Below are positions 38,137 through 60,300 of a stretch of 64,000 nucleotides of DNA, in pieces. The first letter of the stretch is position 1. Each line of letters begins with the position of its first letter. The position numbers and the translations under genes are program-made. The stretch lies in contig CANHCS010000001.1 of assembly GCA_947459195.1 (NCBI GenBank), positions 33,391 through 97,390 of the forward strand. The letters run 5' to 3'. The notes under the pieces are model-generated. The model saw only the letters and a list, made by a program, of their open reading frames with translations. It did not search any database and was not told the origin of the DNA. The DNA is from Sphingobacteriaceae bacterium. GTDB taxonomy: Bacteria > Bacteroidota > Bacteroidia > Sphingobacteriales > Sphingobacteriaceae.

Positions 38137-38150
38137 ACAATTCTTTGTTG

Positions 38151-38717
38151 TCAATTGAGGCGCTTCGTTAATTGTTCTTCTACTTTTTTGAACAACTGCA
38201 TCGGTTTCAGCCCACGCCAGCTTAAATCGTCTAAACTCCCGCCAAAATTGATGTAATAATCAATGTTATTGCGTTTGAATTCTTCGATCACATGTTCGCG
38301 GAAATTGATACCGGCAATCCAGCCATCTTCCACATCCTGAAACCATTCTTCATAGTAGAGATCGTCTGAAGAATGAAAATTGAGCACATTTTCACCAATT
38401 AGGATGAACTTATTGATGCCTTCATCCATCATTAATTCCAAAATCTCCCGTTTGAGGGTCATGATGTCGTTGTGGATGGCATCGTTCCATTCGCCGATGA
38501 ATTCGATAATGGCGTAGCCATGCTCGTAGTCGGCAAATATTACTTTAAGGTATAAGGTTTGTGAGCCGAAATCGTCCCACTGTGGGTGGATGAGGTAATT
38601 GTAAATCTGTTTATCGAAATGAAACTCGTTGTACTGTGTCTCGTAAAAAGGAGATCGCTCGTCTTCGGCGGCTATATAATCATCTCGCCAACGGTAATAA
38701 GGTTCAATCTCATGCAT
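38151..38717 (-). CDS. Hypothetical protein coupled to murQ
   Basis: The product is 188 residues, acidic and aromatic-rich, without signal peptide or membrane helices; I do not recognise a family. Notable stretches are YYRWRDDYIAAEDERSPFYE at the N-terminus and FGGSLDDLSWRGLKPMQLF near the C-terminus. The central part alternates beta and helix like a small Rossmann or STAS-like fold (VIFADYEHGYAIIEFIGEWN then LKREILELMMDEGINKFILI), which is only an impression. The ATG follows the murQ stop by one base, so its translation is probably coupled to that of murQ, hinting at a role in cell-wall recycling or in a stress response linked to it. Confidence 0.75.
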   Translation of the reverse strand: MHEIEPYYRWRDDYIAAEDERSPFYETQYNEFHFDKQIYNYLIHPQWDDFGSQTLYLKVIFADYEHGYAIIEFIGEWNDAIHNDIMTLKREILELMMDEGINKFILIGENVLNFHSSDDLYYEEWFQDVEDGWIAGINFREHVIEEFKRNNIDYYINFGGSLDDLSWRGLKPMQLFKKVEEQLTKRLN

Positions 38718-41950: not shown

Positions 41951-42025
41951 GGCCCGTTCGTCTAGGGGTTAGGACGCAAGATTTTCATTCTTGAAACAGG
42001 GGTTCGATTCCCCTACGGGCTACCA
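41951..42025 (+). tRNA. tRNA-Glu (TTC)
   Basis: Cloverleaf with anticodon stem-loop CAAGA-TTTTCAT-TCTTG (anticodon TTC, Glu), T arm AGGGG-TTCGATT-CCCCT and acceptor ends GGCCCGT / ACGGGCT, CCA encoded. Its 3' half is the integration site of the downstream island: bases 42008-42022 are repeated at 49199-49213. The antisense strand of its 3' half encodes the last residues of the recombinase. Confidence 0.97.
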
Positions 42026-43532: not shown

Positions 43533-43674
43533 CCTGTTTGGATTTATTTTTAAAAGTCTCGTAATCTAATCTTCCTAAGCAATATAATACTTCTCTTATC
43601 GCTTTAATATTTTCAGTCGAATAAAATTTGCCTGATTTCGTAAGTATTGATTTACAATGTTCGATTGAGAGCAT
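43483..43674 (-). CDS. Small recombinase-associated protein
   Basis: Using the ATG at 43674 the product is 63 residues: MLSIEHCKSILTKSGKFYS, then a helical segment (STENIKAIREVLYCLGRLDYETF) and a charged tail. Small ORFs of this pattern (an ILxKxGxxYTxEExxxIRExLYxLAxL-like core) are recalled directly upstream of recombinases in Bacteroidota, so it is probably an accessory or regulatory protein of the element. It overlaps the recombinase start by 50 nt in another frame. A longer frame to 43752 is open, but its 26 extra residues do not fit the pattern. Function not established. Confidence 0.6.
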   Translation of the reverse strand: MLSIEHCKSILTKSGKFYSTENIKAIREVLYCLGRLDYETFKNKSKQDEECNNLYPSFYRRTG

Positions 43675-43925
43675 AATATAAACTTGTATCGATTTTAATA
43701 ATTCGATGTAAAGCACGTTAAAATGCTTATGTGAAAAAATCAATGTGGACAACTTTCAATTATCTGGGTGCTTGTTACAATAATTAAATCGCCTTTTTTA
43801 TTTATACACTTTATCATAACTTTATGAGAGATTGAATACAGAAAGTGAAATATTTCATTTTCAAATACTGTTTTAATACTAACTAAGCCTATATCTCACC
43901 AATCTCAAAACAACTAAGTCCCAAT

Positions 43926-44411
43926 ATGAAAAAAACAATTCTAATCTTAATTCTACTCCCATTATTCACATTTGGTCAAAGAGAAAGCAAGGATAGTTTG
44001 CAGATTAATGAAAAAGCTCTTGGTTGGTTTAAATCTAATTATGTAGAAAAGAGTTTCAAGGACCCTTATTCTTTTAAACTAATGAAAATTTCAAATAGTT
44101 CAATTTCATTTAAACAATGGATATTAAATGATTTAGAATCTGCTCAAAGAGCAATTTCTGAATATGAGCAAAAAAAGAAATTAGATAAGTATGAAAAAGA
44201 GTTATATGATGGTACTGTTAAACGAAGAGCTTTATATCAGGAGCAATTAAATACGTTGACTCCGGAAGATTCACAAAAGGTTAAGTGTTACGAAATCTTG
44301 ATAGACTGCTATGGTGCAAATTCATATGGCAACTTGATTTTGAGTAAATATAAATTCAATTTTTTCACTGATAAACTTCCCCCAGTTTCATACGTGCAAA
44401 AAGTTAATTGA
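43926..44411 (+). CDS. Exported hypothetical protein (island cargo)
   Basis: The product is 161 residues with a clear Sec signal peptide (MKKTILILILLPLFTFGQ) and a basic, helical mature part: SNYVEKSFKDPYSFKLMKIS followed by a charged helix (AQRAISEYEQKKKLDKYEKE) and a C-terminal stretch with two Cys (KCYEILIDCYGANSYGN). The DPYSF...SFK segment and the closing GANSYGNLILSKYKF resemble a small secreted family seen in Bacteroidota, but I cannot name it. First of the plus-strand cargo genes. Confidence 0.7.
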   Translation: MKKTILILILLPLFTFGQRESKDSLQINEKALGWFKSNYVEKSFKDPYSFKLMKISNSSISFKQWILNDLESAQRAISEYEQKKKLDKYEKELYDGTVKRRALYQEQLNTLTPEDSQKVKCYEILIDCYGANSYGNLILSKYKFNFFTDKLPPVSYVQKVN

Positions 44412-44466
44412 AGTCTTGATTGTTAAAGGATTATAATATTAGATTTAACTATTAAAACATTTAACC

Positions 44467-44805
44467 ATGAAAGAAAACCAAGACTACACCAAACTCAAAG
44501 ACGACACAATTGAATATTTAGAAACAAATGACGAAAACAACCTAAGGAGAGTTGCAACCTTTGTTTTGTTAATTGGTATAGGAATTTCCATATTATCCTT
44601 TATTTACCTTTCTTTTATTACGGTTCCCCATCGTGACTACCCCCTTACACAAAAGGAATATGTATTTAACCCATCTGGGTTCATTGCAAGTATTGGTACC
44701 CTTATGGGGTCAATTTTACTTTGGTCACTCTTAAGGGTGATTTCTAATATTTCAATATCCCTTAAGGAACTTAATGCAAATTACACAACTAAAAATTTTC
44801 GATAG
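44467..44805 (+). CDS. Small membrane protein with two transmembrane helices
   Basis: The product is 112 residues. A charged N-terminal about 30 residues precede a first helix (VATFVLLIGIGISILSFIYL) and a second (FIASIGTLMGSILLWSLL) followed by an amphipathic tail (SNISISLKELNANYTTKNF). No known domain. It is followed 22 nt later by another small membrane protein; the pair may work together. Confidence 0.65.
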   Translation: MKENQDYTKLKDDTIEYLETNDENNLRRVATFVLLIGIGISILSFIYLSFITVPHRDYPLTQKEYVFNPSGFIASIGTLMGSILLWSLLRVISNISISLKELNANYTTKNFR

Positions 44806-44827
44806 AATTTTAAAAAAGTATTAAAAC

Positions 44828-45046
44828 ATGGGAACAACAACTGAACCCCTCTTTGGGGTTGTATTAGTTATTTTTTTACTTATTGGTATTTTCCTGTTGA
44901 TAAGAGGATTAAATCTTTGGTATTGGAAAATTGAAGAAAGGATTGAAATTGAAAAAGAACAATTACGTGTACAAAGAGAAATATTGAGTAATCTTCAGGA
45001 TTTCATGAGTGAATTAGAAAAACGAAAAAATAATTCTTTTTATTAA
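44828..45046 (+). CDS. Small single-span membrane protein
   Basis: The product is 72 residues: one hydrophobic helix (FGVVLVIFLLIGIFLLIRGL, about 10-29) and a charged, helical C-terminus (IEIEKEQLRVQREILSNLQD) that could form a coiled coil. No family recognised. Directly follows the 112-aa membrane protein in the same direction. Confidence 0.6.
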   Translation: MGTTTEPLFGVVLVIFLLIGIFLLIRGLNLWYWKIEERIEIEKEQLRVQREILSNLQDFMSELEKRKNNSFY

Positions 45047-45159
45047 GTATCCTAATAAAATTATTGTGGTAGCCAAGTGTAGCTACATGCCGTTGGTAGC
45101 AAGTCTAAAGTCAGACGCCCTACAAACAAACCGATACAAATTCAAAAAATTAAAGAGAT

Positions 45160-46077
45160 ATGAACAAATTAAACATTTTACTCTTTTTAACACTGGTTGT
45201 TGTTTTAACTTCTTGCGACAAAACATATAAGTATGTAGAGAAGGTTAGTGAAGAAAGTATTTTAGGTGGGACAGTAATAAAAGAGAAAGATGAAACAATT
45301 ATTATGGCAAAGGACGACTCTACTGCATACTTGGAAGCATTCCGGAAGTTTTGTATTTCGGTTAAAGTTAAAAAGTACATGGATAAATCAATGGGTAAGA
45401 CATATTCTACACCCATAAGTTTTAAACTTTTAAATGACAAGGGTGAAGACATAACAAGCACTACATTATTTGCAAGCCGAACTAAACGTGAAAAAGAAAT
45501 TGAAGAACGAATATTTTCAATGAAAAACAGCGTTCAAGATGCAGTTGACAATAACAGAAAAGAGAGAATAGAAGAATTTAAAAAAACAGCAAAAATTGAT
45601 TCTGCAAAAATTAAAGAATTGAAGAAATTTTTTAGAATTAAAAAAGACGAATTTTCTACAACAGGAAAAACCTGGTATACACCCAAGTCAGCTCCAAGAT
45701 ATACAAATAGAAATGGATTATATTGCTATTTCCAAACGGAGAATGGTATTCCGAGCAATTTTAGATTTAGAATGCAATACTATTCGGACGATTGGTTGTT
45801 TTTTAGTAAAGTGCAATTTTCAATAGATGGGAAAGCATATGAGTATGTACCTATGGACACAGAAACTGATAATGGGGACGGTGGACGTATTTGGGAATGG
45901 TTTGATGAAAGTGTTTCCGAAAGCGACAAAGAATTAATAAATGCTTTAGCGAATGCAAAATCAGCTAAAATGAAACTGATAGGTAGACAATATTTTGATA
46001 TAAAAAATATAACACAGGAACAAATAAAAAGTATTAAACGAACATTAGAATTGTATCAAGCAATGGGTGGAAAATAG
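45160..46077 (+). CDS. Hypothetical lipoprotein (island cargo)
   Basis: The product is 305 residues with an SPII signal and lipobox VLTSC (Cys at about 19). The mature part has a Lys/Glu-rich helical middle (about 105-160) and a C-terminal half with aromatic residues (RYTNRNGLYCYFQ, MQYYSDDWLFFSKVQFSIDG, GGRIWEWFDESVS) that looks beta-rich, ending in a helix. I recognise no family. The segment around WLFFSKVQFSIDGKAYEYVP is like small periplasmic or lipoprotein domains that occur alone in many genomes. Function unknown. Confidence 0.72.
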   Translation: MNKLNILLFLTLVVVLTSCDKTYKYVEKVSEESILGGTVIKEKDETIIMAKDDSTAYLEAFRKFCISVKVKKYMDKSMGKTYSTPISFKLLNDKGEDITSTTLFASRTKREKEIEERIFSMKNSVQDAVDNNRKERIEEFKKTAKIDSAKIKELKKFFRIKKDEFSTTGKTWYTPKSAPRYTNRNGLYCYFQTENGIPSNFRFRMQYYSDDWLFFSKVQFSIDGKAYEYVPMDTETDNGDGGRIWEWFDESVSESDKELINALANAKSAKMKLIGRQYFDIKNITQEQIKSIKRTLELYQAMGGK

Positions 46078-46274
46078 CAATAATAGCAAAGAGTGTTAGT
46101 TTTTCAATCAATATATTAGTTATAAAAATCAAAAGAAGATAAATCATAAAGAATACATCCCCTTATGAAAAGCTGTTTTTGCATATGAGGACAAAAATGG
46201 GCTTTTCAGATAACAAGCTAAAGGGGAAGGTTTTTATCTAACTGTTAAAATCACATTAATAAAGGAAAGGTATC

Positions 46275-46457
46275 TTGGATGATATATATGTTACCCTTGA
46301 TGGAGGTAGTAATACATTCAGAGAGGTAAAGCGTTACTTTGATAATCCAGAAATTGCAAATGAATTAAGAAGAGGGATTATAGTTACATTTAATGAAAAT
46401 TGGGTTGGATTAATGGGTAATATTTTAATTAAGGAGTTTGAGTTAATACAAGATTGA
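46275..46457 (+). CDS. Short hypothetical ORF, possibly a gene remnant
   Basis: The frame encodes 60 residues from a TTG (no ATG is available; a stop lies 4 codons upstream). The composition is protein-like (FREVKRYFDNPEIANELRRG, then VTFNENWVGLMGNILIKEF), so it is more likely a truncated or small real gene than chance. The 42-aa ORF starts 2 nt after its stop. Product unknown. Confidence 0.4.
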   Translation: MDDIYVTLDGGSNTFREVKRYFDNPEIANELRRGIIVTFNENWVGLMGNILIKEFELIQD

Positions 46458-46459
46458 AT

Positions 46460-46588
46460 ATGAATTTATTCGGAATTACAGGTAGTAAGGTATATGCCGA
46501 TTTAACCCCACTTCCGTCTAAAAATTTGTATAACCCTGAACGATTCTTCAGACATCATATCTTTCCAATTGAGAAAGTTGAAAGTTAA
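46460..46588 (+). CDS. Tiny ORF (42 aa) with an NPExFF tail
   Basis: Encodes MNLFGITGSKVYADLTPLPS, then a tail NPERFFRHHIFPIEKVES. It starts 2 nt after the 60-aa ORF. The tail resembles that of a second tiny ORF at 47461 (NPEQFFSQHLISLEKE), and the DNA is similar there too, so the two are related. Could be a micropeptide or a leftover of a duplicated gene end. Confidence 0.35.
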   Translation: MNLFGITGSKVYADLTPLPSKNLYNPERFFRHHIFPIEKVES

Positions 46589-46598
46589 AGGACGTATA

Positions 46599-47072
46599 CT
46601 AAGAGAGAACTCCAATTACGAAAATTATAAAAATTATAATTGCAATCCATGCAATTACTATCATAGAATTATCGCTATCATAATTTACTGATGGGTTTTG
46701 TTTTCTATAAGCACTCAAACCACCCGTTTGAATATAGTTCTCCAAATAATCCAAAAATTCTCTTTTTATTTTTTCAGCAGTATTGTGAGTAACCGTTGTG
46801 AGTAACCCATCTGAATTACTAATCTTCAGTTTTAGATTGGTTTTATTAGGTTCTAAACTTACTATTTGACACTCTATGACAAATTTCGAACCGAAAGTTG
46901 GGCTGTAATCAAAGGTTATAGTTTTATACAAAGATTTGATTGCCGGGTTATAGAAGTTTGAATTAGATTGAACAACTATAGAAACCGATGAAAACAGTTT
47001 TTCATCGTCAACATTGAAATTATAATTACCCTCTAATGCTGGTAATTGGTGTCTTTGATAATAAGTTCCCAT
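46599..47072 (-). CDS. Hypothetical tail-anchored protein
   Basis: The product is 157 residues: a soluble beta-rich N-terminal part (for example LKLKISNSDGLLTTVTHN) followed by a short helix (AEKIKREFLDYLENYIQ) and one C-terminal membrane helix (VIAWIAIIIFIIFVIGVL) ending at the C-terminus. So it should be anchored in the inner membrane with the main domain in the cytoplasm. No family recognised. Convergent to the tiny ORF at 46460; same strand as the 63-aa membrane protein upstream. Confidence 0.68.
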   Translation of the reverse strand: MGTYYQRHQLPALEGNYNFNVDDEKLFSSVSIVVQSNSNFYNPAIKSLYKTITFDYSPTFGSKFVIECQIVSLEPNKTNLKLKISNSDGLLTTVTHNTAEKIKREFLDYLENYIQTGGLSAYRKQNPSVNYDSDNSMIVIAWIAIIIFIIFVIGVLS

Positions 47073-47097
47073 GTTCTATTTTTTTATATCTAATCCA

Positions 47098-47289
47098 TCA
47101 AAGCCTGTAAAAAGAATTGATTTGTTCATTCGTCATCTTTGTGCCGTCTTTCTCATACAATAACTTTAAAAGATAGTTTGTTCTTTTTGTGTTCTTGTCA
47201 ATTGATGAGAAAACTAAATAAAACATAATAATTATAATCAGTTGAATTCCTAAAATGATAAATAGTACGGTTGATACATCGTTAGTCAT
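47098..47289 (-). CDS. Small single-span membrane protein
   Basis: The product is 63 residues with one N-terminal helix (VLFIILGIQLIIIIMFYLVF) and a charged cytoplasmic tail ending in TNEQINSFYRL. It precedes the tail-anchored 157-aa gene on the same strand by 25 nt, so the two may be one transcript. No known family. Confidence 0.6.
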   Translation of the reverse strand: MTNDVSTVLFIILGIQLIIIIMFYLVFSSIDKNTKRTNYLLKLLYEKDGTKMTNEQINSFYRL

Positions 47290-47460
47290 ATTTTTCTGTT
47301 TTTAAGTTATTTGACTAATCTAAATTTATTATTTTTTAATTGTTTCAAGGGATTGATTTGAAAAATTATTTGAATTATAAATACTTATAACTTGTTATTC
47401 TTTTAGGTTCATTGTTTGTGTGCCAATTTGATAATCCATCAAATTATTCTTTAAAACCAT

Positions 47461-47532
47461 ATGTGTCAAAAAAAGAGTCAGAATCCTGAACAGTTCTTTA
47501 GTCAGCATTTGATTTCATTAGAGAAAGAGTAA
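47461..47532 (+). CDS. Tiny ORF (23 aa) related to the one at 46460
   Basis: Reads MCQKKSQNPEQFFSQHLISL and ends LEKE; the NPEQFFSQH segment matches NPERFFRHH in the 42-aa ORF. It lies in a 372-base stretch (47290-47661) that otherwise holds no gene, only AT-rich DNA and a promoter candidate. It may be untranslated remnant DNA. Confidence 0.25.
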   Translation: MCQKKSQNPEQFFSQHLISLEKE

Positions 47533-47571
47533 AAACTAAAAATAATTTACTAAGATTCTTTTGTTGATTTT

Positions 47572-47604
47572 TTTGAGTCAAATAAGGTCTATATCCTTCT
47601 TTTG
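47572..47604 (+). promoter_or_regulatory. Possible promoter of the 185-aa exported protein
   Basis: TTTG at 47572-47575, 21-nt spacer, TTCTTTTG at 47597-47604 (one base off TAnnTTTG). The gene start is 58 nt downstream. Confidence 0.4.
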
Positions 47605-47661
47605 CACTTTAAATTGGAAAAATAGTTTACTATTTTTATGCTAATAGATTAAGAAAGTAAA

Positions 47662-48219
47662 ATGAAAAACATTATTGTAACTACTATGGTAGTAGTGCTT
47701 ACAACGACAGCACTTTTGGGTCAAGAATTTTTAGGCGTCAAGGTTGATGGGAAAAAAGAGACGGTTATTGCTGCATTTAAGTCGAAAGGGTTTGCTCCAA
47801 GCGGCGAAATGTCGGACAATGTTGTTACAATGAAAGGTGTTGCTGCAGGCAAAAATATAGAAATCAACATTGTCAGTACTCCATTGACTAAAACAGTCTG
47901 GAAATTTTCTGTTTACCTACCAAAACAAAGTAATTGGTATTCTTTAAAGGCACAATATGAAGAATACTTAAAGCTCTTAACAGAAAAGTACGGGGAACCA
48001 ACGAACATGTATAATTTCTTCTCAAGCCCTTACGAAGAGGGAGATGGTTATGAAATGACTGCAGTGTATGCTGAGAAATGTCATTATGCTGCTTTTTGGA
48101 AGCAGGGGTATGCTATAAATATATCCCAATGGAAACAAGTTAACATTGTCTATGAAAATGATGTTAATAGTGATTTAAATCGCAAAGAAAAAGACCAGGT
48201 GAATAAAAACATATTCTAA
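47662..48219 (+). CDS. Exported hypothetical protein (island cargo)
   Basis: The product is 185 residues with a Sec signal peptide (MKNIIVTTMVVVLTTTALLG). The mature part begins with a short repeat-like segment (FLGVKVDGKKETVIAAFKSKGF) and contains WSYSLKAQYEEYLKLLTEKYGEPTNMY-type helix-turn sequence, typical of small periplasmic proteins of unknown role in Bacteroidota (the LKLLTEKYGEPT pattern recurs in them). No enzyme motif. Its own promoter-like boxes lie 58 nt upstream. Confidence 0.72.
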   Translation: MKNIIVTTMVVVLTTTALLGQEFLGVKVDGKKETVIAAFKSKGFAPSGEMSDNVVTMKGVAAGKNIEINIVSTPLTKTVWKFSVYLPKQSNWYSLKAQYEEYLKLLTEKYGEPTNMYNFFSSPYEEGDGYEMTAVYAEKCHYAAFWKQGYAINISQWKQVNIVYENDVNSDLNRKEKDQVNKNIF

Positions 48220-48397
48220 TCTTCTCCATGCAGTAGTTACAACCAGTACACCTTCTTCCTAATGAAAGTATACAATTAAGGTTGTATTCCCTTATAGGAT
48301 GGATATTGCTTCTCAAATATCTCTGACACCCTTTGTTATTTTTTGCTTTTAGCGTTATAAATAGGTATAATATGTCTTAGTGTATACAATTCCCGTA

Positions 48398-48440
48398 ATT
48401 TCACCTTAGTTCGGTTCGATAATTGAAGCTTACGGGCTAC
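48398..48440 (+). pseudogene. Eroded tRNA-Glu 3' half, probable scar of an earlier integration
   Basis: Contains in tRNA order ATTTCACCTTAG (resembling the anticodon loop TTTTCATTCTTG), GGTTCGAT (48413-48420, identical to the T-loop) and TACGGGCTAC (48431-48440, identical to the acceptor end of tRNA-Glu at 42014-42023). The spacing between T loop and acceptor is 5 nt too long and the stems no longer pair. A strong terminator follows at once, as after a tRNA. It may also be chance similarity, but the order of three matches argues against that. Confidence 0.45.
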
Positions 48441-48441
48441 T

Positions 48442-48480
48442 AAAAACCTCATTTCTGATTTCAGAGATGAGGTTTTTTAT
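48442..48480 (+). terminator. Strong intrinsic terminator
   Basis: AAAAACCTCATTTCTGA (48442-48458), loop TT, TCAGAGATGAGGTTTTT: a 17-bp stem with one G-T pair, ending in six T. It follows the tRNA-Glu-like scar. The 356 bases between 48220 and 48575 contain this and the scar but no gene. Confidence 0.88.
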
Positions 48481-48575
48481 TTTACGGGTTAAACAAAGTA
48501 AACATTTATTAAACTTCAATACTAGATTTATCCTTGGAGGTGATAGTTATTTTTAGAGTTTTAATTATCATGGAT

Positions 48576-49013
48576 TTATTTTTTGATGGAGTAATAGAAT
48601 GTCCCAACGCCTCCACGATTCATCCCACCAATTAGTACCGTTGTGTCGATTTTACTTAATACTTTATTATTATTTATGTATATAGAAGAAGTTGAACTTC
48701 CTTTCTTGTCTAAGATATAAAAGGTCGTTTCAAATCCAACATCCAATGGTCTTTTGTTACTGGTAATTGTAAACGTAGTATCCCAGGAATTAACTCCACT
48801 TTTAGGGTAAACATATTCTGATAATCCATTTTCTCCCACAATTTTCGTAATTCTAAATGCTGACCTAGGACCAAAGCTAGCGGGAGGTTCGATGATACCT
48901 GTACTAAATTTTAGTTCATATTTTACAGTTATAGGGACAGGACGTGTTGTTTTATCTTTGGAGCAACTACTAAATAAACACACCAAAAACAAAATATTAA
49001 TAATTTCTTTCAT
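48576..49013 (-). CDS. Hypothetical lipoprotein
   Basis: The product is 145 residues with an SPII signal (lipobox LFSSC, Cys at about 17) and a small beta-sandwich-like mature domain (VKYELKFSTGIIEPP, SVNSWDTTFTITSN-type strands, DTTVLIGGMNRGGVGTFYYS). Such domains are common among Bacteroidota surface or periplasmic lipoproteins of unknown role. It is the only gene of the segment between the tRNA scar and attR. The 311 bases from 49014 to 49324 hold no gene, only attR and a terminator. Confidence 0.72.
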   Translation of the reverse strand: MKEIINILFLVCLFSSCSKDKTTRPVPITVKYELKFSTGIIEPPASFGPRSAFRITKIVGENGLSEYVYPKSGVNSWDTTFTITSNKRPLDVGFETTFYILDKKGSSTSSIYINNNKVLSKIDTTVLIGGMNRGGVGTFYYSIKK

Positions 49014-49198
49014 ATGAATCAGTTAATCTATGAATTAAATATTTCCAAATTTAAAATTCTTTAAGGAAACTGTCATTCCTCTATTCTCTATATTTCAATG
49101 AAGGTTCATTGTATAGTATTTAGAACTATATGAGTTCGAAGTCCTGTTAAAAAAGTGCTGTAAAACATTTATAAAAGCACATTATGACTGAGGTGTGT

Positions 49199-49213
49199 TT
49201 CCCCTACGGGCTA
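49199..49213 (+). repeat. attR core: copy of the tRNA-Glu 3' end
   Basis: TTCCCCTACGGGCTA, 15 of 15 identical to 42008-42022. Directly followed by a terminator hairpin, as would be expected if this is where tRNA-Glu originally ended. No CCA follows here, whereas the tRNA copy has one. Confidence 0.85.
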
Positions 49214-49324: not shown

Positions 49325-52300
49325 GTGCATATTCACTTTAAGAGATGGTTGCTTGTTGCTTTTTTGTTCAACAGTTTACTTGTAAGGTCACAAACCAAAA
49401 TCAATTTTGATGAGGGATGGAAATTTCATTTCGGCCATGCCGGTGATCCTTCGAAGGATTTCAATTATGGTATTCCAGCCATATTCTCCAAGTCAGGCAA
49501 AACAGATCAAACTGCGCTAGGCATTAATTTTGATGATAAAGCCTGGAGAACGCTCGATTTACCTCATGACTGGGCAGTAGAATTACCTTTTGTAAATACG
49601 CCTAATTTTGATGTGCAGTCGCACGGCTATAAACCAGTGGGCGGTTTGTATCCAGAAACCAGTATCGGCTGGTACCGCAAACATTTTACCGTAGCCAAGG
49701 CCGATTCGGGAAGTCGTTTCAGCATACAGTTTGATGGAATTTTTAGGAATGCCAACATTTGGGTCAATGGATTTTTTCTGGGGAATAATCAAAGTGGCTA
49801 TGTGGGGGCAACTTATGATATTACCGATTATATCCAATTTGATAAAGACAATGTAATTACGGTAAGAGTAGATGCCACACAATACGAAGGTTGGTTTTAT
49901 GAGGGGGCCGGGATCTATAGGCACGTATGGCTAAATAAATTTAACAACCTCCATTTTGAGCAGAATGGCGTGTTTGTTTATTCGGATGTGAAGGATAAGA
50001 GTGCACAAATAAACATTGAAGCCAGCATCCAAAATGAACAATTGAGTGGAGCAAACTTCACAATCTATTCATATCTCACAGACCGGAATGGTAAAAGGCT
50101 GGCCCAAACGAAACCACAAGCTGTTGAACTGGCTTCCAACGCTCAAACAACCGTTAAGCAGCAGATCCATCTCCTGCATCCGCGTTTATGGAGCTTAAAA
50201 GATCCTTATTTATACAAAGTCGTTTCTATCATTAAATCCGGGGATCAGGTGATCGATTCTGTAAAACAACGCATTGGTATCCGTACCATCCGTTTGGATC
50301 CGAAGGAAGGTTTTTTCCTGAATGGCGAATACGTGAAGTTGCAAGGCGTAAACAATCACCAAGATCATGCTGGGGTAGGGAGCGCCTTGCCGGATTATTT
50401 GCAATACTATCGTGTGGCTTTATTAAAAGAAATGGGCGTGAATGCCTATCGTACCAGCCACCACGCACCTACACCCGAACTGTTAGCAGCCTGCGATAGT
50501 TTAGGGATGCTGGTGATGGATGAACAACGTTTATTAAATAGCAGTCCCGAATACATGAGTCAGCTTGAGCGTCTAATTAAACGTGATCGGAATCATCCTT
50601 CCGTTTTTTTATGGTCAATTGGCAACGAGGAAGGTTGGATACAAACTAACTCTACCGGAAAGCGTATTGCTCAAACCCTATTGGCCAAACAACGAGCATT
50701 AGACCCCACCCGCACCAGCACCTATGCGGCCGATGTTCCCAATGTATTTGAAGGGGTAAACGAAGTCATCCCCGTTAGAGGATTTAACTATCGCCAGTTT
50801 GCCGTTGCCGATTATCATCGCGACCACCCCAATCAACCCATTATTGGTACGGAGATGGGGAGTACGGTAACTACTCGGGGAATTTATCAGCTTGATTCAT
50901 TGAAAGCTTATCTGCCCGATCAAGACATCACTGCTCCCTGGTGGGCCAGCCGTGCTGAAGAGTGGTGGCAGCTTGCTGCTCCAAATAAATTTTGGCTAGG
51001 TGGATTCATCTGGACTGGATTTGATTATCGAGGAGAACCCACCCCATTCAAATGGCCTAATATCAATTCGCATTTTGGCGTAATGGACATGTGCGGATTC
51101 CCAAAAAACATTTATTACTACTATCAAAGCTGGTGGACCGATAAAGACGTATTGCATATTTCGCCTCATTGGAATTGGCCCGGCAAAGAGGGACAAGCCA
51201 TGGATGTTTGGGTGAACTCCAATGCCGACGATGTGGAATTGTTTTTAAATGGGAAAAGTTTGGGTAAAAAACAGATGCCACGTAATGGGCATTTGCAATG
51301 GTCAGTTTTGTATGAGCCGGGTAAATTAGCAGCCATTGCTTATAAAAAAGGTAAAAAATTAACCGCACAAGTAGAAACTACCGGTCCGGCTGCCGAAGTG
51401 GTAATTACTCCTTATAAAACAACCATGCTGGCCGATGGCAAGGATGCAGCCGTGATTAATGTGAGTGTAGTGGACAAGGAGGGAAGAGAAGTGCCCAATG
51501 CCAATCAGCTCATTAAATTTATCCTTACGGGAGATGCGAAAATTATTGGCGTTGGCAACGGAGATCCGAGCAGTCATGAACCTGATAAATGTGTAGACGG
51601 TGCCTGGCAACGAAGTCTGTTTAATGGGAAATGTCAGGTAATTATTCAATCGGGTAAAACCGCGGGGAATATCAAGTTCGAAGCAATAGCAGATGGACTG
51701 TGGAAAGGATCAACTGATATTTTAACAGTTTCACCGTCTAATGTATCTACCCTGAGTACGAGCGATAAGAAGTATGAATTGAGAGGTGAAGCCGCCAAAT
51801 CGAGGTCGAGCACCAAGATGCTGGGAGCTGATATTTCTTTTCTACCAGAGTTAGAGGCCAAGGGGATTAAATTTTCGGATCAGGGTATTCAGAAAGATCC
51901 CATTTTGATCATGAAAGACCATGGGATCAATTATGTGCGCTTACGCATTTTTAATGACCCAGCTCATGAAAAAGGCTATGCTCCCGGCCAAGGATTCTGC
52001 GATTTGAACTATACCAAAGCCATGGCGAAACGGGTGAAAGCAGCCGGGATGAAGCTCTTATTAGACTTTCACTATAGCGATTATTGGGCCGACCCGGGAA
52101 AACAATTCAAGCCGGCCGCTTGGGAAAAATTAAATCCGGAGGAGCTCAAGCAAGCTTTATATGATTTTACCAAGAAAGTGATGCAGGAATTGAAAGATCA
52201 GGGCACTACACCCGATATGGTCCAAATTGGAAACGAGATTAACCATGGTATTGTTTGGCCGGAAGGTAGTGTGAGCAATATCGATTATTTGGCACAGCTC

Positions 52301-52726
52301 ATTAAATCAGGTACCGCCGCCGTAAAATCGGTTGATCCGAAAGTGGTGATGATGCTGCACATCGCTTTGGGCGGACAGAACGACGAGTCTGTATTTTTTA
52401 TAGATAATATGGTGGCCCGTGGGGTACACTTCGATGTGATCGGTCAGTCCTATTATCCAAAATGGCATGGAACTTTAGCTGATTTGAATTCGAATTTGAA
52501 TGATTTGGTCAGAAGATATGATAAAGAGGTCATCGTAGTTGAATATTCCCAATTTAAGGATGAAGTAAATAAAATTGCTTTTGAACTTCCTGAAGGCAAG
52601 GGCATGGGTACCTGCATTTGGGAGCCCCTCAATACCTGGGAGGCATTCTTTAACCCAGACGGCCAATCTAATGACTATCTGAAACGCTACGATCAGATCA
52701 GCAAACAATACCTCCAGAAAAAATAG
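49325..52726 (+). CDS. Fused GH2 beta-galactosidase and GH53 endo-beta-1,4-galactanase
   Basis: A 1133-residue exported enzyme. A signal peptide (KRWLLVAFLFNSLLVRSQ) is followed by a GH2 module (about 25-620): sugar-binding and Ig-like domains, then a TIM barrel with acid/base Glu435 in WSIGNEEGW and nucleophile Glu510 in GTEMGST. Additional beta domains (about 620-825) precede a GH53 module (about 832-1133) with KMLGADISFLPELEAKG, MKLLLDFHYSDYWADPG, acid/base Glu971 in VQIGNEINHG and nucleophile Glu1073 in VIVVEYSQ. Both catalytic pairs are intact. So one chain should cut galactan and release galactose from the fragments. The GTG start is placed just before the signal peptide. First gene of the galactose operon; galK begins 12 nt after its stop. 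Confidence 0.93.
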   Translation: MHIHFKRWLLVAFLFNSLLVRSQTKINFDEGWKFHFGHAGDPSKDFNYGIPAIFSKSGKTDQTALGINFDDKAWRTLDLPHDWAVELPFVNTPNFDVQSHGYKPVGGLYPETSIGWYRKHFTVAKADSGSRFSIQFDGIFRNANIWVNGFFLGNNQSGYVGATYDITDYIQFDKDNVITVRVDATQYEGWFYEGAGIYRHVWLNKFNNLHFEQNGVFVYSDVKDKSAQINIEASIQNEQLSGANFTIYSYLTDRNGKRLAQTKPQAVELASNAQTTVKQQIHLLHPRLWSLKDPYLYKVVSIIKSGDQVIDSVKQRIGIRTIRLDPKEGFFLNGEYVKLQGVNNHQDHAGVGSALPDYLQYYRVALLKEMGVNAYRTSHHAPTPELLAACDSLGMLVMDEQRLLNSSPEYMSQLERLIKRDRNHPSVFLWSIGNEEGWIQTNSTGKRIAQTLLAKQRALDPTRTSTYAADVPNVFEGVNEVIPVRGFNYRQFAVADYHRDHPNQPIIGTEMGSTVTTRGIYQLDSLKAYLPDQDITAPWWASRAEEWWQLAAPNKFWLGGFIWTGFDYRGEPTPFKWPNINSHFGVMDMCGFPKNIYYYYQSWWTDKDVLHISPHWNWPGKEGQAMDVWVNSNADDVELFLNGKSLGKKQMPRNGHLQWSVLYEPGKLAAIAYKKGKKLTAQVETTGPAAEVVITPYKTTMLADGKDAAVINVSVVDKEGREVPNANQLIKFILTGDAKIIGVGNGDPSSHEPDKCVDGAWQRSLFNGKCQVIIQSGKTAGNIKFEAIADGLWKGSTDILTVSPSNVSTLSTSDKKYELRGEAAKSRSSTKMLGADISFLPELEAKGIKFSDQGIQKDPILIMKDHGINYVRLRIFNDPAHEKGYAPGQGFCDLNYTKAMAKRVKAAGMKLLLDFHYSDYWADPGKQFKPAAWEKLNPEELKQALYDFTKKVMQELKDQGTTPDMVQIGNEINHGIVWPEGSVSNIDYLAQLIKSGTAAVKSVDPKVVMMLHIALGGQNDESVFFIDNMVARGVHFDVIGQSYYPKWHGTLADLNSNLNDLVRRYDKEVIVVEYSQFKDEVNKIAFELPEGKGMGTCIWEPLNTWEAFFNPDGQSNDYLKRYDQISKQYLQKK

Positions 52727-52738
52727 TTACAGTTCAGT

Positions 52739-53878
52739 ATGACTCAGATTAGAAGCATTTTCTATCAGCAATTTGCCACAGAGCCAATTGTTATTCAATC
52801 TCCCGGCAGGATCAATATCATAGGAGAGCATACCGATTATAATGAAGGGTTTGTATTGCCGGCATCGATAGACAAATCAATTTATGTGGCCATTTCAAAA
52901 AGGGAGGATCAACAAATCCATTTGTTCTCCTCCAATTATCAAGAGTACATTGAAATAGCACTTGCTGATATCAGGCCAAATCAAAATTGGTCAACTTATA
53001 TCTTAGGAGTAGTAGATCAAGTCCAGAAAAAGGGACATCATTTAAGTGGTTTTAATTTGGTGTTGGATGGGGATGTGCCGATTGGTGCGGGATTATCTTC
53101 TTCTGCAGCTGTGGAATGTGCGGTGGTGTTTGCATTAAACGAATTATTCGGTCTGGGAATCAGTAAGCTCGAAATGGTTCAGATCGCTCAAAAGGCAGAG
53201 CATACTTTTTCTGGCGTATTATGTGGTATCATGGACATGTTCGCCAGCATGTTTGGGCAGCAAGATCAAGTGATCAAACTCGATTGTCGTTCGCTGGATT
53301 ATACATATAAACCTTTGGTTCTCGACGGATATAAACTTGTCCTCTTCAATACCAATGTGAAACATTCATTAGCCAGCTCTGCTTATAATACCCGCAGGCA
53401 GGAATGTGAGCAGGGGGTGAGCTGGGTGCAGCAAAAATATCCGGAAGTAAAAAGTTTAAGAGATGTGAACAGGCAGATGTTGCAAGAATTAGTTGCCCCT
53501 AAGGATCAGCAGGTTTACCGTCGTTGCAATTATGTGGTATCAGAAATTGAGCGCTTACAGCAAGCCTGTGATGATCTGGAAAGGGGAGACCTTTTAGCCT
53601 TGGGTCAAAAAATGTTTCAAACTCACCAAGGGCTGAGTAATGACTACGAAGTAAGCTGCAAAGAATTAGATTTTTTAGTAGATGAAGTCAAAACACAAAA
53701 TGCCGTTTTAGGAGCCAGGATGATGGGGGGAGGTTTTGGCGGATGTACCCTTAATTTAGTGAAAGAAGAATTTATAACTGAAATCTCTGAGAAGCTTTAC
53801 CAAAGCTATCAGCAGAAAATGGGTTTAGAGCTGAGCACTTACATCGTAACTACCGCTCCAGGAACACACAGATTATGA
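52739..53878 (+). CDS. galK: Galactokinase
   Basis: GalK phosphorylates galactose to galactose 1-phosphate, the entry of the Leloir pathway. The 379 residues have the three GHMP-kinase motifs: SPGRINIIGEHTDYNEG (about 22-38), PIGAGLSSSAAVECA (about 118) and MMGGGFGGCTLNLV (about 337). Complete and of normal length. It sits between the GH2-GH53 fusion and the aldo/keto reductase, whose start overlaps its stop by 4 bases. No galT or galE is in the window. Confidence 0.97.
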   Translation: MTQIRSIFYQQFATEPIVIQSPGRINIIGEHTDYNEGFVLPASIDKSIYVAISKREDQQIHLFSSNYQEYIEIALADIRPNQNWSTYILGVVDQVQKKGHHLSGFNLVLDGDVPIGAGLSSSAAVECAVVFALNELFGLGISKLEMVQIAQKAEHTFSGVLCGIMDMFASMFGQQDQVIKLDCRSLDYTYKPLVLDGYKLVLFNTNVKHSLASSAYNTRRQECEQGVSWVQQKYPEVKSLRDVNRQMLQELVAPKDQQVYRRCNYVVSEIERLQQACDDLERGDLLALGQKMFQTHQGLSNDYEVSCKELDFLVDEVKTQNAVLGARMMGGGFGGCTLNLVKEEFITEISEKLYQSYQQKMGLELSTYIVTTAPGTHRL

Positions 53879-54870
53879 GCTACATTCCTAATATAAACCG
53901 TTACGAGCAAATGGACTACCGTCGCTGTGGTCAAAGTGGGTTGAAATTGCCGGCCATTTCTTTAGGTTTATGGCACAATTTCGGACAGCTTGATGATTTT
54001 GAAAATGCCCGTCAACTTATTCATAGAGCTTTTGATTTGGGTATTACTCATTTCGATCTTGCAAATAATTATGGTCCGCCGCCGGGCAGCGCAGAAGAAA
54101 ATTATGGCAAGATCCTGAAGCAAGATTTTGGTAGATTTCTTCGCGATGAACTCATCATTTCGACCAAGGCGGGCTATCGGATGTGGCCGGGACCTTACGG
54201 CGAATGGGGTTCACGAAAGTATCTGATCAGTAGTCTCGATCAGAGTTTAAAACGCACGGGTTTGAATTATGTAGATATCTTTTACCACCACCGACCCGAT
54301 CCTGAAACGCCCTTGGAAGAGAGTATGCAGGCCCTGCACGATATCGTAAAAAGTGGCAAGGCATTATATGTGGGTATTTCCAATTATCCTGCCGAAGTAG
54401 CTCGAAAAGCGATCCAAATGCTTAAAGAATTGGGTACGCCCTGCCTCCTCCATCAGCCTAAATATTCACTATTTGAACGTTGGGTGGAAGATGGTTTATT
54501 GGACGTTTTAGAAGAAACTGGAACCGGTTGTATCCCTTACTCGCCTCTGGCGCAAGGCTTATTGTCCGACCGTTACCTTAAAGGCATTCCAAAAGATTCT
54601 AGAGTGGCTAAAGGGGTAGGTTTTTTAACTGAATCTCATTTATCACCCGACAAATTGGAAAAAATTAAGCAATTGAATGAGCTGGCAGTTGAACGTAGCA
54701 CCACCTTGGCACAAATGGCATTGGCCTGGGTATTGAAAGATCCTCGAGTTAGTTCGGTACTCATAGGCGCCAGCCGCCCCGAGCAAATTAGCGATGCGGT
54801 TGAGTGTTTGGAGAAATTATATTTTGAGCCAGAAGAGTTGTCCGCCATTGAAAATATCTTGAAGCCCTAA
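53875..54870 (+). CDS. Aldo/keto reductase (YghZ-like)
   Basis: The product is 331 residues of the aldo/keto reductase superfamily, closest in pattern to YghZ (L-glyceraldehyde 3-phosphate reductase) and Kv-beta-like members: MDYRRCGQSGLKLPAISLGL at the barrel entrance, DLANNYGPPPGSAEENYG (catalytic Tyr), YVDIFYHHRPDPETP, KALYVGISNYPAEV, and the C-terminal NADPH site SSVLIGASRPEQISDAVE. It starts inside the last codons of galK (4-base overlap), so it is part of the galactose operon; a role on a sugar aldehyde is plausible but not shown. Confidence 0.87.
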   Translation: MSYIPNINRYEQMDYRRCGQSGLKLPAISLGLWHNFGQLDDFENARQLIHRAFDLGITHFDLANNYGPPPGSAEENYGKILKQDFGRFLRDELIISTKAGYRMWPGPYGEWGSRKYLISSLDQSLKRTGLNYVDIFYHHRPDPETPLEESMQALHDIVKSGKALYVGISNYPAEVARKAIQMLKELGTPCLLHQPKYSLFERWVEDGLLDVLEETGTGCIPYSPLAQGLLSDRYLKGIPKDSRVAKGVGFLTESHLSPDKLEKIKQLNELAVERSTTLAQMALAWVLKDPRVSSVLIGASRPEQISDAVECLEKLYFEPEELSAIENILKP

Positions 54871-54894: not shown

Positions 54895-56589
54895 ATGAAC
54901 AGTAATTTATTACAAACAGCAGATTACATCGTCTTCCTCATTTACTTCTTCATTGTGGCCGGTTATGGATGGTGGATATACACCCGTAAAAAATCTGAAA
55001 AATCGGGTACTAAAGATTATTTTTTAGCAGAGGGCTCGCTTACCTGGGTGGCCATTGGCGCATCGTTGATCGCATCTAATATCTCTGCCGAACAATTCAT
55101 TGGTATGAGTGGCGAAGGATTTTTCAGCGGCATCGCGGTAGCTGCTTACGAATGGATAGCTGCCCTATCACTCATCATTATTGCGGTCTGGTTCATGCCG
55201 GTGTACCTCAAAAATCAAATTTTTACCATGCCGCAGTTTCTCAAGGAGCGATACAACGAAACCGTAGCGATCGTAATGGCTGTTTTCTGGTTATTTCTAT
55301 ACGTTTTTGTCAATCTTACTTCTATTTTATACCTGGGTTCAAAAGCCATTAGCGGATTAGCGGGACAGGAATATTTTCACCTCATTCTCATCTTACTTTC
55401 TCTATTTGCGTTGCTTATTGCCCTTGGCGGGATGAAGGTGATTGGCTATACCGATGTGATTCAAGTGGCCGTATTGATCATCGGTGGATTTGTGGCGGTA
55501 TGGCTGGCATTGGTAAAAGTGGATGAAGTGGTGAACCAAGGTCAGAGTGCGTGGAATGGGTTCCGTACACTGATGACTCAGGCTCCCGACCATTTCCATA
55601 TGATTTTTGACAAACCTACTGCAACGAGTAATGCTGATTTTATTGCCAAATATTTAGCCCTGCCCGGTATTACGATGTATTTTGCCGGCCAATGGGTAGC
55701 CAACCTTAATTATTGGGGCTGTAACCAATACATTACGCAAAGGGCTCTAGGGGCCGATTTACAAACAGCCCGTAATGGGATTCTGTTTGCCGGATTTCTG
55801 AAATTGTTTATGCCGGTAATTGTCATGTTGCCGGGCATTGCAGCTTATGTTTTGTATAAAAACGGTTATTTTGATGCGGCTACCTTTAATGGACAAAAGG
55901 ATGGCGCCTATGCTGCTATTTTGAGTTTATTGCCTGTGGGGATGAAAGGCCTATCTGTTGCTGCCCTTACGGCAGCCATTGTAGCGTCCTTGGCGGGTAA
56001 AGCCAATAGTATTTCAACCATCTTTACTTTAGATGTGTACGAGAAGTATTTTGATAAAGCTGCTGATGAGAAGAAATTAGTGTGGGTAGGTCGCCTCACT
56101 ATTTTGGTTGCCATGCTCATCGCGATAGCAGTTTGTTGGGAAGATTTATTGGGTATTGGCCGAGAAGGCGGATTTACGTTTATTCAGAAATATACCGGAT
56201 TTATCAGTCCGGGAGTTTTTGCATTGTTTATCTTAGGTATGTTCTGGAAGCGTACCACTAGTGCTGCCGCCATTACCGGTTTAATTTCTGGCCTGGTCAT
56301 CGTAATAGTATTTAATAATTTTGCTCCAAGTTGGTTCGGTATGGAGACCTTGCTTTATACTGCCTATTTGAACGGTGCCGGTCAGTATGAGATTCCATTC
56401 ATGGTTAATATGGGTTGGTCGTTTGCTTTCACCGTTTTAATTATGGTACTTGTCAGTTTCGCAGGCCCTAGAGTCAATCCTAAAGCATTCGAATTGGATC
56501 AAGAAATGTTCAAATTAAAGCCATCTACCATTGCACTCATCACTATTATTTTAATGATGGTTTTAGCCTTGTACATCAAGTTTTGGTAA
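54895..56589 (+). CDS. Sodium:solute symporter, probably for galactose
   Basis: The product is 564 residues with about 14 membrane helices of the SSS family (SGLT/vSGLT type). Seen: an N-terminal helix DYIVFLIYFFIVAGYGWWI, the SSS motif LEGSLTWVAIGASLIASNISAEQFIGMSGEG-like region, YNETVAIVMAVFWLFLY, and the central GMKGLSVAALTAAIVASLAGKANS. The Ser/Ala-rich ion site and GQWVANLNYWGCNQYITQRALGA segment are as in SGLT-like sugar transporters. Its place after galK suggests it imports the galactose released outside. A strong terminator follows. Confidence 0.9.
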   Translation: MNSNLLQTADYIVFLIYFFIVAGYGWWIYTRKKSEKSGTKDYFLAEGSLTWVAIGASLIASNISAEQFIGMSGEGFFSGIAVAAYEWIAALSLIIIAVWFMPVYLKNQIFTMPQFLKERYNETVAIVMAVFWLFLYVFVNLTSILYLGSKAISGLAGQEYFHLILILLSLFALLIALGGMKVIGYTDVIQVAVLIIGGFVAVWLALVKVDEVVNQGQSAWNGFRTLMTQAPDHFHMIFDKPTATSNADFIAKYLALPGITMYFAGQWVANLNYWGCNQYITQRALGADLQTARNGILFAGFLKLFMPVIVMLPGIAAYVLYKNGYFDAATFNGQKDGAYAAILSLLPVGMKGLSVAALTAAIVASLAGKANSISTIFTLDVYEKYFDKAADEKKLVWVGRLTILVAMLIAIAVCWEDLLGIGREGGFTFIQKYTGFISPGVFALFILGMFWKRTTSAAAITGLISGLVIVIVFNNFAPSWFGMETLLYTAYLNGAGQYEIPFMVNMGWSFAFTVLIMVLVSFAGPRVNPKAFELDQEMFKLKPSTIALITIILMMVLALYIKFW

Positions 56590-56651: not shown

Positions 56652-57353
56652 TCAATTGGTTCTGAATTTGTACAAACCAGAGTCTGAAGAATTATTCTTG
56701 GCATCTTTAGTAATCACCTTCCAGTAGTAGGTAGTTCCTGGATTGGTAGGAACAGCGGTAGATGAGAGGTTTGCTGCAACTGCTCTTAATAAACTACTCG
56801 ATTTATTATTAACGTCTGTCTCAGAAGTGCCAAAATAAACTTCGTAACCAGTGATATCATTATCGGTATCAGCACCTTTCCATTGCAAATTGATATTGCC
56901 AGAACCAACTGCTTGGTTATAGGTTGGACTCACAATTTCTGCCGGGAAAGGGGCATAGTTTGTTTTTCCGGAGCCGGCGTTGTAAAATTTCCAGGTATCA
57001 CTTTCGGCAGTAGCAGAACTTTTGCTCGATTTCGAAATCACATACCAGGAATAGGGCGTGTCTTTCAATAGATTGATATCTATAAAATTTGTATTAACCT
57101 CTTTATTAGTTAAAGTGTTTGTTAGCAGGTTTTTGACGATCACCTCATATCTTTGTGCATTGGCAGCATTTGACCATTCAAACCGTACGGTACTTTCTGT
57201 GTTCGATACCGAAACCCCATTTAAACAAACTTCGTCTTTTGCAGGCAAGCGTAATACTGCTTTCTCTGGGTTCACTTCAGGAGCATCAGAGCCCTTACTG
57301 CAAGCGCCAACAATAGCTGTTAATAATAAAATAGACAATACTAATTTTTTCAT
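56652..57353 (-). CDS. FN3-like domain lipoprotein
   Basis: The product is 233 residues with an SPII signal (lipobox IVGAC, Cys at about 18) and two fibronectin-type-III-like beta domains: one with TVRFEWSNAANAQRYEVIVK and one with INLQWKGADTDNDITGYEVYFG, ending with TYYWKVITKDAKNNSSD. These are typical of extracellular binding domains in Bacteroidota. Its start overlaps the stop of the protease gene by 4 bases (ATGA), so the two are translated together; it may anchor or assist that protease. Confidence 0.85.
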   Translation of the reverse strand: MKKLVLSILLLTAIVGACSKGSDAPEVNPEKAVLRLPAKDEVCLNGVSVSNTESTVRFEWSNAANAQRYEVIVKNLLTNTLTNKEVNTNFIDINLLKDTPYSWYVISKSSKSSATAESDTWKFYNAGSGKTNYAPFPAEIVSPTYNQAVGSGNINLQWKGADTDNDITGYEVYFGTSETDVNNKSSSLLRAVAANLSSTAVPTNPGTTYYWKVITKDAKNNSSDSGLYKFRTN

Positions 57354-60300
57354 TTTTTCAAAATTTTATAGGTTTTGGTGCCCAAATTCAAGAAGTAGAA
57401 TCCAGCTTCTAATGAAGATAGATCTACCTGAACGGTTCTGTTTTGTACCGTATGTAAATTTTTATAGACTACTAATCCGGCACTGTTGAGTACGCTGACT
57501 AGCACCGATTTAGTTTGAGGATCCTCTAATTTAATATTCAGGATATCCTGGAATGGGTTCGGATAAACCAATGCCTTGATATCTACTAAAAACTCTTCTT
57601 CATAGGTACCCTGACACGCTTGATCGGTGCTGACCACCAGTTTATTGGTACCATTCTTTAAATCTAAAGTAATTTCAGATGAACTGGTGAAGTAGAGTTC
57701 ATCATTCAATTTAATTTGATAAGTATTCCCACCATCCAATCTAATGGTCACCGAATTTGTTACCGGATCCACTTTTGAAAAAGCCGTCAGACTTTTCGGT
57801 CCCACAACTAGCGAATATTCAGTTTTAAATTCCTCCTTACCATCTACATAAATGCTGATCTTATAATTACCAGATGTGAGGTTGTTGATATCCAATGTAT
57901 TATTGAACACGAAATCGGCACTAGTGTTATCTGGTCTGGTGAGTTTCAATAAGTAACGTAGGTTTTGAGCAGCGGTAATATTAATCCTTCCATTAATGAT
58001 ATTGGTGCAAGTTGCATCGGTAACCGATACAGAAAAATTATTGGCAGCTAATGGGAAGTTAACGCCCACTACCACGGTTGCTGAGTTTTGAACACATGCT
58101 CCAGAGCTTACCCTAACCGAATAGGAGCCCGCTTGCGTACTGGTATGAGTGTTACCGGTAGCGCCTGGTATGGCCTCGCCATTGAAAAGCCATTGATTGC
58201 CCGTAGCTGCGCTGGAGGTGAGGGTGTTGCCGTTCACGCTGATGGTTGGAAGACTCAACGGAGTTGTGGTTACTGCAGTTCGTTGAGGGGCAGCACATTC
58301 GGCTGATTTGACCACCAGATCATAAAAATAGTAGTAGAAGTTTTTGAAATGTTCGGGGTTAGAAGCATCGGTTGCGGTATTACCGGTGATGCTAAAAATC
58401 CCCCCAATAGTGAATGGATAACCAGTTACACCTGCATTGTTTCGGTAGATAGAAGATCCACCTTCGTAGCTGATGGATATCCTGTAGTTACCGGCAGTTG
58501 GGAGTAAAAGATTGAGGTCGTATACCTGCCCATCGGTATTCTGAATCACATCAAGTGTAACAGAAGAAACCGGCAGGCCTGTGGAGACATTTTCTGCGGT
58601 GAATGTGATTTTACCGGCGCTGCCAATGTAAAGTCTTGCACTTTCGAGGATGACTGGTACTCTGGTGTTGACGAGCACGGCCGGATTGTTGCCATTTAGA
58701 AATCCTCCCCCTGAAAATGCAGTATTTGTTTTTGGTCCTACCGAAGCTTTAAAATCATTCACTCCAGCATGAAAAGTGCTAATGTTGGTATTATTTTCGG
58801 TGTAGTTGGCGGGGCTATTATTGGAAGTAAAAGCCACCGGTACTTGGTCATTGGCATTTTTGTACCAGAATACAGTTCCAGCTCCGCTTGAGCTAAAATT
58901 ATAAACCCCAGTGCTGCCACAACTCACTACAGATGTATTGGACAGAGTTGGTGGGTTACTAATGCTGAAATTAATGATCTTTTGGTTGTTAACCGCGTCT
59001 GCATCATTACCTAACTCTGTGCTGGCAATTAGTTCATAAGTTTGACCTGCCTGGCTGTTGAATGGGGTATTTAATGTAAAATCAACTTCATTGAGTGCAG
59101 CCAAATTTCCGGTATAACTTTCGGTTATGGTTGTCAATACATTATTGTTATTTTTTATGATGACTTTAACAGGTACATTACTAATGGTGGTACTGCCATA
59201 GTTGTTCAAAGTGACGGTTATTCTCTGACCATTAGCAGCACAATTGCCATCCACAGGGTTTAGAATGGCACTTATGCCCACGTCTCTGCTTGGCCTTAAA
59301 AAAGCCACCCTGTAATCCATTACTTCCCCTTTATTGTAAGTTCCGCATGAAGTTATACTGTTTGCATCTGCAGTCTCGCTCAACACCACACGCAGTAAAC
59401 TGAATGCATTTAATGTAACATTACTTGGAATACTGATGTCTTTTTTAAATTCTGCACTACCATTTATGACCGATGTGGTAGCGATTAGTTCGTTGGTTTC
59501 ATTAAAGCTACCATCCTGATTAAAGTCGATGTAAATTTTCGCGATTTTATTGGCATTGGTATTACAAGCGCCTAATTTAATGCTGAGCGGATAAGTAGCT
59601 CCTGCTTCCAAATTGATGAGTTGAGCCGTATTGTCTGTGTAAGCCCTGCAATTAGCATTACTGTAATCGATGTTACTCAATTTAAAGCTTTCAATTTTGG
59701 CATTCTGTGTGCCAGAAATTGTGGGAGCACAATAGGCCGCACCACCTATACCTGAAATGATCAATGAATAAGCTTGTTTACCGCCATCAAGATTGTTTTT
59801 ATGTCTCACATTGATGGTATAAGTTTTTCCGGGAATGGGATCATTGATGATCACCTGCTCCACATTGTCCCTGATATTATCGCCACGGGTGGCATTAGCA
59901 TCGGGGGCATCAGGACTCAAGATCCATGGTCTGTACTCGGTAGACTGATCATTGATTCGTAAGTCGAGATCATTGATCAAACGCGGTGTACGCTCATTGA
60001 GCGGATAAGTATAAGTTTTTTGATTGTTTGATTCAGTGAAGGGAGGAATGCCGGGTGGGTCTGTCCAGCAAATGGTGGCCACAATTGGCCCATTTCCGGA
60101 GCTGGTTACCTGATAGGTTTTATTGGAGGTGGTGACGTTATTAACGGTCCCCAAAATGTCTTCATAAATTCTGCTCTTTGTACCATCCTCCAAGATAAGT
60201 TGAGCAGCTTTTTCAGCATTTAATACTCCCCAGCCAAAAATGTAATCAGGTCCCGGCCGTCCTACATCATCGGCAGTATGAATGGCCAGTCCTTTTAGCG

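Follow-up and report, generated by a model that had tools for sequence, protein, structure and literature searches.

A recurrent GH2-GH53 fusion with a short-loop GH53 module, a candidate finishing enzyme for beta-1,4-galactan in Bacteroidota

Among the closest described counterparts of the locus analyzed here is the galactan PUL BT4667-BT4673 of Bacteroides thetaiotaomicron, which comprises SusC, SusD, SusE, GH53 and GH2 (PMC5238430). The solved GH53 enzymes differ in the loops that carry the distal subsites. In BlGal, an extended loop houses the -3/-4 subsites, and in IaGal the -3 Trp is placed in loop 8; loops 7 and 8 of GH53 enzymes are normally tied together, and the loop 7 of BtGal is short (PMC8447715). 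From galactan, GH53 enzymes without a -3 subsite produce galactose and galactobiose; the fungal enzymes of this kind, as well as the short-loop-7 BtGal, take galactan down to galactobiose (PMC8447715).

The locus lies in a 64,000-nucleotide stretch of Sphingobacteriaceae DNA, the whole of which is called the window. It encodes a GH2 beta-galactosidase and a GH53 module in a single chain. Judging from its sequence, predicted fold and gene context, this fusion likely works in the periplasm, where its two activities would complete the breakdown of beta-1,4-galactan, as found in pectic galactan and in type I arabinogalactan side chains.

Domain organization and distribution of the fusion

The fusion is encoded by one uninterrupted frame of 1133 aa that spans positions 49325-52726 on the forward strand and opens with GTG, a start that is backed by the same opening (VHIxF...) in the near relatives L022 and L024. 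The original prediction of a GH2 beta-galactosidase and a GH53 in one exported chain agrees with the organization observed, in which a signal peptide is followed by a GalA-family GH2 with its C5 domain, a linker and a GH53 barrel. The signal peptide, as read from the sequence, covers residues ~1-22 (49325-49390) and is of type I, with no lipobox Cys. The GH2 module (residues 31-795; 49415-51709) was delimited by Pfam, NCBIfam, alignment and Foldseek, and consists of Glyco_hydro_2_N, Glyco_hydro_2, Glyco_hydro_2_C, DUF4982 and Glyco_hydro2_C5 (PF18565; residues 694-795; 51404-51709). Residues 29-797 match the whole NCBIfam model NF041462, "beta-galactosidase GalA", with 1096.1 bits against a curated cut-off of 900. 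That model stops at the C5 domain and has no GH53, whereas the fusion continues through a linker of ~37 residues (796-832; 51710-51820), poorly conserved in the alignment, into the GH53 module (residues 833-1133; 51821-52723). Residues 833-1078 of the latter match Glyco_hydro_53 (PF07745) with an E-value of 3.6e-93 and 312.7 bits against a cut-off of 24.

The solved relatives of the fusion are GH2 beta-galactosidases (7CWD, 4YPJ and others) and GH53 galactanases (7OSK, 1R8L and 6GP5). The AlphaFold model of the protein is good for the GH53 and the beta domains and weak at the active-site loops of the GH2 (residues 512-539 and 565-595). In a Foldseek search, the top matches of its GH2 part are GH2 beta-galactosidases with a target TM of up to 0.87.

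A scan of GTDB-species genomes yielded 289 related stretches, of which the best 80 (64-94% identity) were analyzed as loci. Nearly all of these 80 match the query end to end, and all of them carry GH2 and then GH53 in a single ORF, a few being cut by contig ends. At least 80 related genomes thus carry the fusion, and its one-chain form in all 80 best loci rules out chance or an assembly artefact. The hosts of the best 80 are mostly Chitinophagaceae, joined by Sphingobacteriaceae, Saprospiraceae, Flectobacillaceae and Flavobacteriaceae. Within the genus of the window, a GH53 match inside a frame of 1112-1138 aa is present in five of six genomes, the sixth being 60% complete. Across an evenly drawn sample of the phylum, three of ~395 other Bacteroidota genomes have the fusion and one has an independent fusion, in keeping with the earlier statement that endo- and exo-galactanase activities usually reside in separate genes. 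The suggestion that the architecture is exceptional does not hold, given at least 80 close homologues with the same single-chain layout. GalA also occurs without GH53, as shown by GH2-only relatives at 55-71% identity. Two open frames of 1472 and 1501 aa were considered as further GH53 fusions; reading of the DNA resolved them into ordinary separate GH53 and fusion genes.

Both catalytic pairs appear intact, as originally predicted. The GH2 residues were assigned by motif, with Glu435 of the NE motif as the acid/base and Glu510 of the GTE motif as the nucleophile, and the GH53 residues Glu971 (acid/base, strand 4) and Glu1073 (nucleophile, strand 7) align with those of the solved enzymes. Glu435, Glu510 and Glu971 are kept in 81 of 81 aligned proteins and Glu1073 in 80 of 80, one row being cut. 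The mean conservation of the GH53 (0.80) is on par with that of the GH2 domains (~0.8) and exceeds that of the linker (0.58), which indicates that neither module is decaying. Both modules look catalytically competent.

The position of the linker among the least conserved stretches of the mature chain, together with the existence of relatives that have each module alone, would fit a protein whose modules are cleaved apart after export and act as two separate enzymes. This is very improbable, since no conserved cleavage motif was seen in the linker and the fusion has been kept through wide divergence.

The short-loop GH53 module

The GH53 of the fusion shares with IaGal (7OSK), BlGal (1R8L) and BtGal (6GP5) the catalytic Glu pair, the -2 Trp and the barrel up to strand 7. 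It differs from them in the absence of loop 7, in a minimal loop 8 and in being joined to a GH2. In phmmer comparisons, most solved GH53 enzymes align to it only as far as the nucleophile, and IaGal resembles it strongly through strand 7. Trp921 is invariant; counting residues along the alignment matches it to W115, the -2 Trp in IaGal. The spacing between the nucleophile and the Trp of strand 8 is 26 residues in 35 of 35 fusions and in 13 of 13 shorter proteins that consist of a C5 domain and a GH53 (C5-GH53 proteins), compared with 36-58 residues in the seven other GH53 enzymes that the script could measure. In the model of the fusion, strand 7 (1068-1073), helix 7 (1078-1086) and strand 8 (1093-1098) follow one another with almost no loop 7. 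By the spacing and the model, the module is without the loops 7 and 8 that bear the -3/-4 subsites in the BlGal/IaGal subtype, and it presumably has no such subsites.

This deletion is no bar to GH53 membership, as the -3 subsite is also lacking in fungal enzymes and loop 7 is short in BtGal (PMC8447715). Based on the missing loop 7 and the retained -2 Trp, the module probably yields galactose and galactobiose, a profile that fits its GH2 partner. The short-loop GH53 subclade would represent an uncharacterised type of galactanase with a predictable product profile (galactose plus galactobiose) that is relevant to pectin processing.

Having lost loop 7 and some of loop 8, the module might instead have changed its function, for example to the exo-acting release of galactobiose or mainly to substrate binding. 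The deletion is common to all 48 short-loop GH53 measured, which form one clade (100/99), and while a short loop 7 is also seen in the solved BtGal (PMC8447715), the spacing here is below that of every other GH53 measured. A changed function is nevertheless rather unlikely in view of the invariant catalytic pair and -2 Trp, and of the strong similarity through strand 7 to IaGal, a solved endo-galactanase. It is quite improbable that the loop-7-less GH53 evolved as a partner of the GH2, with the GH2/C5 domains standing in for the missing groove wall, or the groove opening onto them, so that products are fed to the pocket of the GH2 to which it is joined.

Origin and loss of the pairing

The clade of short-loop GH53 modules (100/99) comprises the fusions, the C5-GH53 proteins and two GH53-alone proteins nested among the fusions. 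The C5-GH53 proteins (loci L112-L124; e.g., L115:1988-3397) occur in the window's own family and measure 458-479 aa. Like the fusion they place a GH2-type C5 domain ahead of a GH53 of the same clade, as confirmed by PF18565, but they lack the GH2 catalytic part. They are probably relics of the fusion, and the C5 remnant suggests that some relatives have shed the GH2 part again. The simplest reading of the tree is that the GH2 was lost repeatedly while the GH53 was retained. This order of events is tentative, since a tree that unites these fusions in one clade also passes the AU test (p-AU 0.08).

A second GH2-C5-GH53 protein (L126), of 36% identity, has a GH53 of the BtGal type. The AU test strongly rejects a tree that unites it with the first fusion (p-AU 1.5e-165); its branch is long. 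It belongs to a genus of another Bacteroidota family in which three genomes, G660, G711 and G809 (L126, L149 and L148), carry the fused form. These proteins share with the first fusion the order GH2-C5-GH53 and the position beside a separate GH53 gene, and differ from it in their BtGal-type GH53, in the GH2 branch and in having an unfused congener. In that congener, G837, the GH2 (832 aa) and GH53 (369 aa) are encoded by adjacent separate genes, both downstream of another GH53. The rejected grouping, the BtGal-type GH53 of the second fusion and the separate genes of G837 indicate that the pairing arose at least twice. Fused and unfused GH2 and GH53 thus stand within one genus (L147, L148, L149 and L126), and the second fusion is recent.

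The fusion would chiefly set a 1:1 ratio and the co-location of the two activities, with direct channelling possible. Substrate channelling proper, as originally proposed, in which the arrangement of the active sites hands what the GH53 releases straight to the GH2, would fit the short linker (~37 residues), the retention of the fusion across 64-94% identity and its repeated origin. We regard it as unlikely, because the linker is poorly conserved and because the C5-GH53 and GH53-alone proteins make repeated loss of the GH2, with the GH53 kept, the simplest reading of the tree. A fusion of endo- and exo-hydrolases that act on the same bond offers a clean test of fusion against co-expression, and nature provides the controls: modules that are fused, separate, apparently lost again and independently fused anew, including fused and unfused forms within one genus.

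A literature search returned no paper naming a GH2-GH53 fusion; CAZy and PULDB lay outside this search and may already hold the module order. The recurrent module combination and the GH53 subclade are apparently undescribed, and it is to these two that the novelty of the present analysis is confined.

Gene neighbourhood and cellular location

Three forward-strand genes identified in the original prediction lie downstream of the fusion and were confirmed by Pfam and NCBIfam: the galactokinase galK (52739-53878), an aldo/keto reductase of the L-glyceraldehyde 3-phosphate reductase (YghZ) subfamily (53875-54870) and an Na+/sugar symporter of the SSF family (54895-56589). The closest solved relative of the symporter is vSGLT of Vibrio parahaemolyticus (3DH4/2XQ2; aligned over residues 7-490, E 5.5e-115). 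Of the eight residues that we take to be the galactose contacts of vSGLT (N64, Q69, E88, S91, N260, Y263, K294 and Q428), the symporter keeps all except S91. It differs from vSGLT in having Ala at this position and at S364 of the Na site. The window genome (G000; 1.8 Mb, 93.5% complete) has galK and an aldose epimerase, and no match to the GalT family (PF01087) was found in it. A Bacteroides control genome likewise gave no match, so this lack may be a wider Bacteroidota trait.

The window genome has just two GH53 genes, the fusion and a separate endo-galactanase at 37069-38154 on the reverse strand. The latter lies 11 kb from the fusion, carries a lipoprotein-type signal with a lipobox-like motif (FNISC) and a long loop 7, and belongs to a different GH53 branch. 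In 31 of the 80 relative loci, a GH53 gene is located directly upstream of the fusion on the same strand, and of the 57 loci whose upstream DNA extends for 6 kb or more, 33 have SusC or SusD. The recurrent locus of the relatives reads SusC-SusD-SusE-GH53 lipoprotein-fusion(-galK-SSF), and Pfam confirmed SusD, the TonB-receptor plug (SusC), SusE, GH53, galK and SSF. This layout, common to many relatives, is also that of BT4667-BT4673, in which GH53 and GH2 serve beta-1,4-galactan alongside SusC/SusD/SusE-like proteins (PMC5238430). In the PUL, however, the GH2 and GH53 are separate, whereas the GH2 of the fusion has its own second GH53. The window locus differs further in that SusC/D/E were found neither around the fusion nor in the loci L022-L024 of the same genus; the lack of SusC/SusD among the surrounding genes had already been noted in the original prediction. 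The genome does encode four SusD proteins, on other contigs.

The signals of the fusions are hydrophobic and of type I, with a lipobox-like pattern in only three of 80, and no T9SS tail was found in them, the chains ending right after the GH53. On these grounds, the fusion is predicted to be periplasmic. By contrast, the GH53 proteins that neighbour it in relatives typically have a Cys closing the hydrophobic stretch, within a strict lipobox pattern in 18 of 36; most of the others have a near-lipobox Cys, as judged by eye. This difference in signals points to cutting at the surface by the GH53 lipoprotein and finishing in the periplasm by the fusion. The absence of SusC/SusD had been taken to suggest the import of galactose instead of oligosaccharide. 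That is plausible only for the inner membrane, where a vSGLT-like symporter would act, and it conflates two membranes: with the fusion in the periplasm, oligosaccharides still have to cross the outer one.

Galactose could be the sole import if the protein were released from, or displayed on the outside of, the cell, and the galactose-type symporter in the operon and the lack of SusC/SusD beside the gene in the window's genus are compatible with this. Such an external location is decidedly unlikely, as the fusion has neither a T9SS tail nor a lipobox, its orthologues are located in SusC/SusD loci, and an SSF symporter works only at the inner membrane.

For the periplasmic fusion, a three-step pathway can be proposed. 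A separate, putatively surface-exposed GH53 lipoprotein, here that of 37069-38154, would cut galactan, and the oligosaccharides would enter the periplasm, in many relatives through SusC/SusD. There, the loop-7-less GH53 of the fusion would break the oligosaccharides into galactose and galactobiose, with the GH2 module freeing galactose from non-reducing ends. Judging by homology, the vSGLT-like symporter would then bring galactose into the cytoplasm for phosphorylation by GalK. The fusion would thereby represent an uncharacterised, recurrent route from pieces of pectic galactan to galactose.

Two further elements flank the fusion. A ~7.2-kb island (42008-49213), which ends ~110 bp upstream of the fusion start, is integrated at the 3' end of tRNA-Glu(TTC) (41951-42025) and bounded by a 15-bp repeat, TTCCCCTACGGGCTA. 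L022 and L024 have no insertion at this site. The island encodes a serine recombinase (41985-43532, reverse strand), an enzyme type that is unusual for a tRNA 3'-end site. Its small ORFs received no Pfam assignment, a PADLOC scan of the island returned nothing, and one has a weak Ntox46 match. Downstream of the fusion, on the opposite strand, lies a subtilase of 1400 aa (57350-61552) with a GEVED domain and a T9SS sorting tail; the position of this protein family beside the fusion is conserved in L022-L024.
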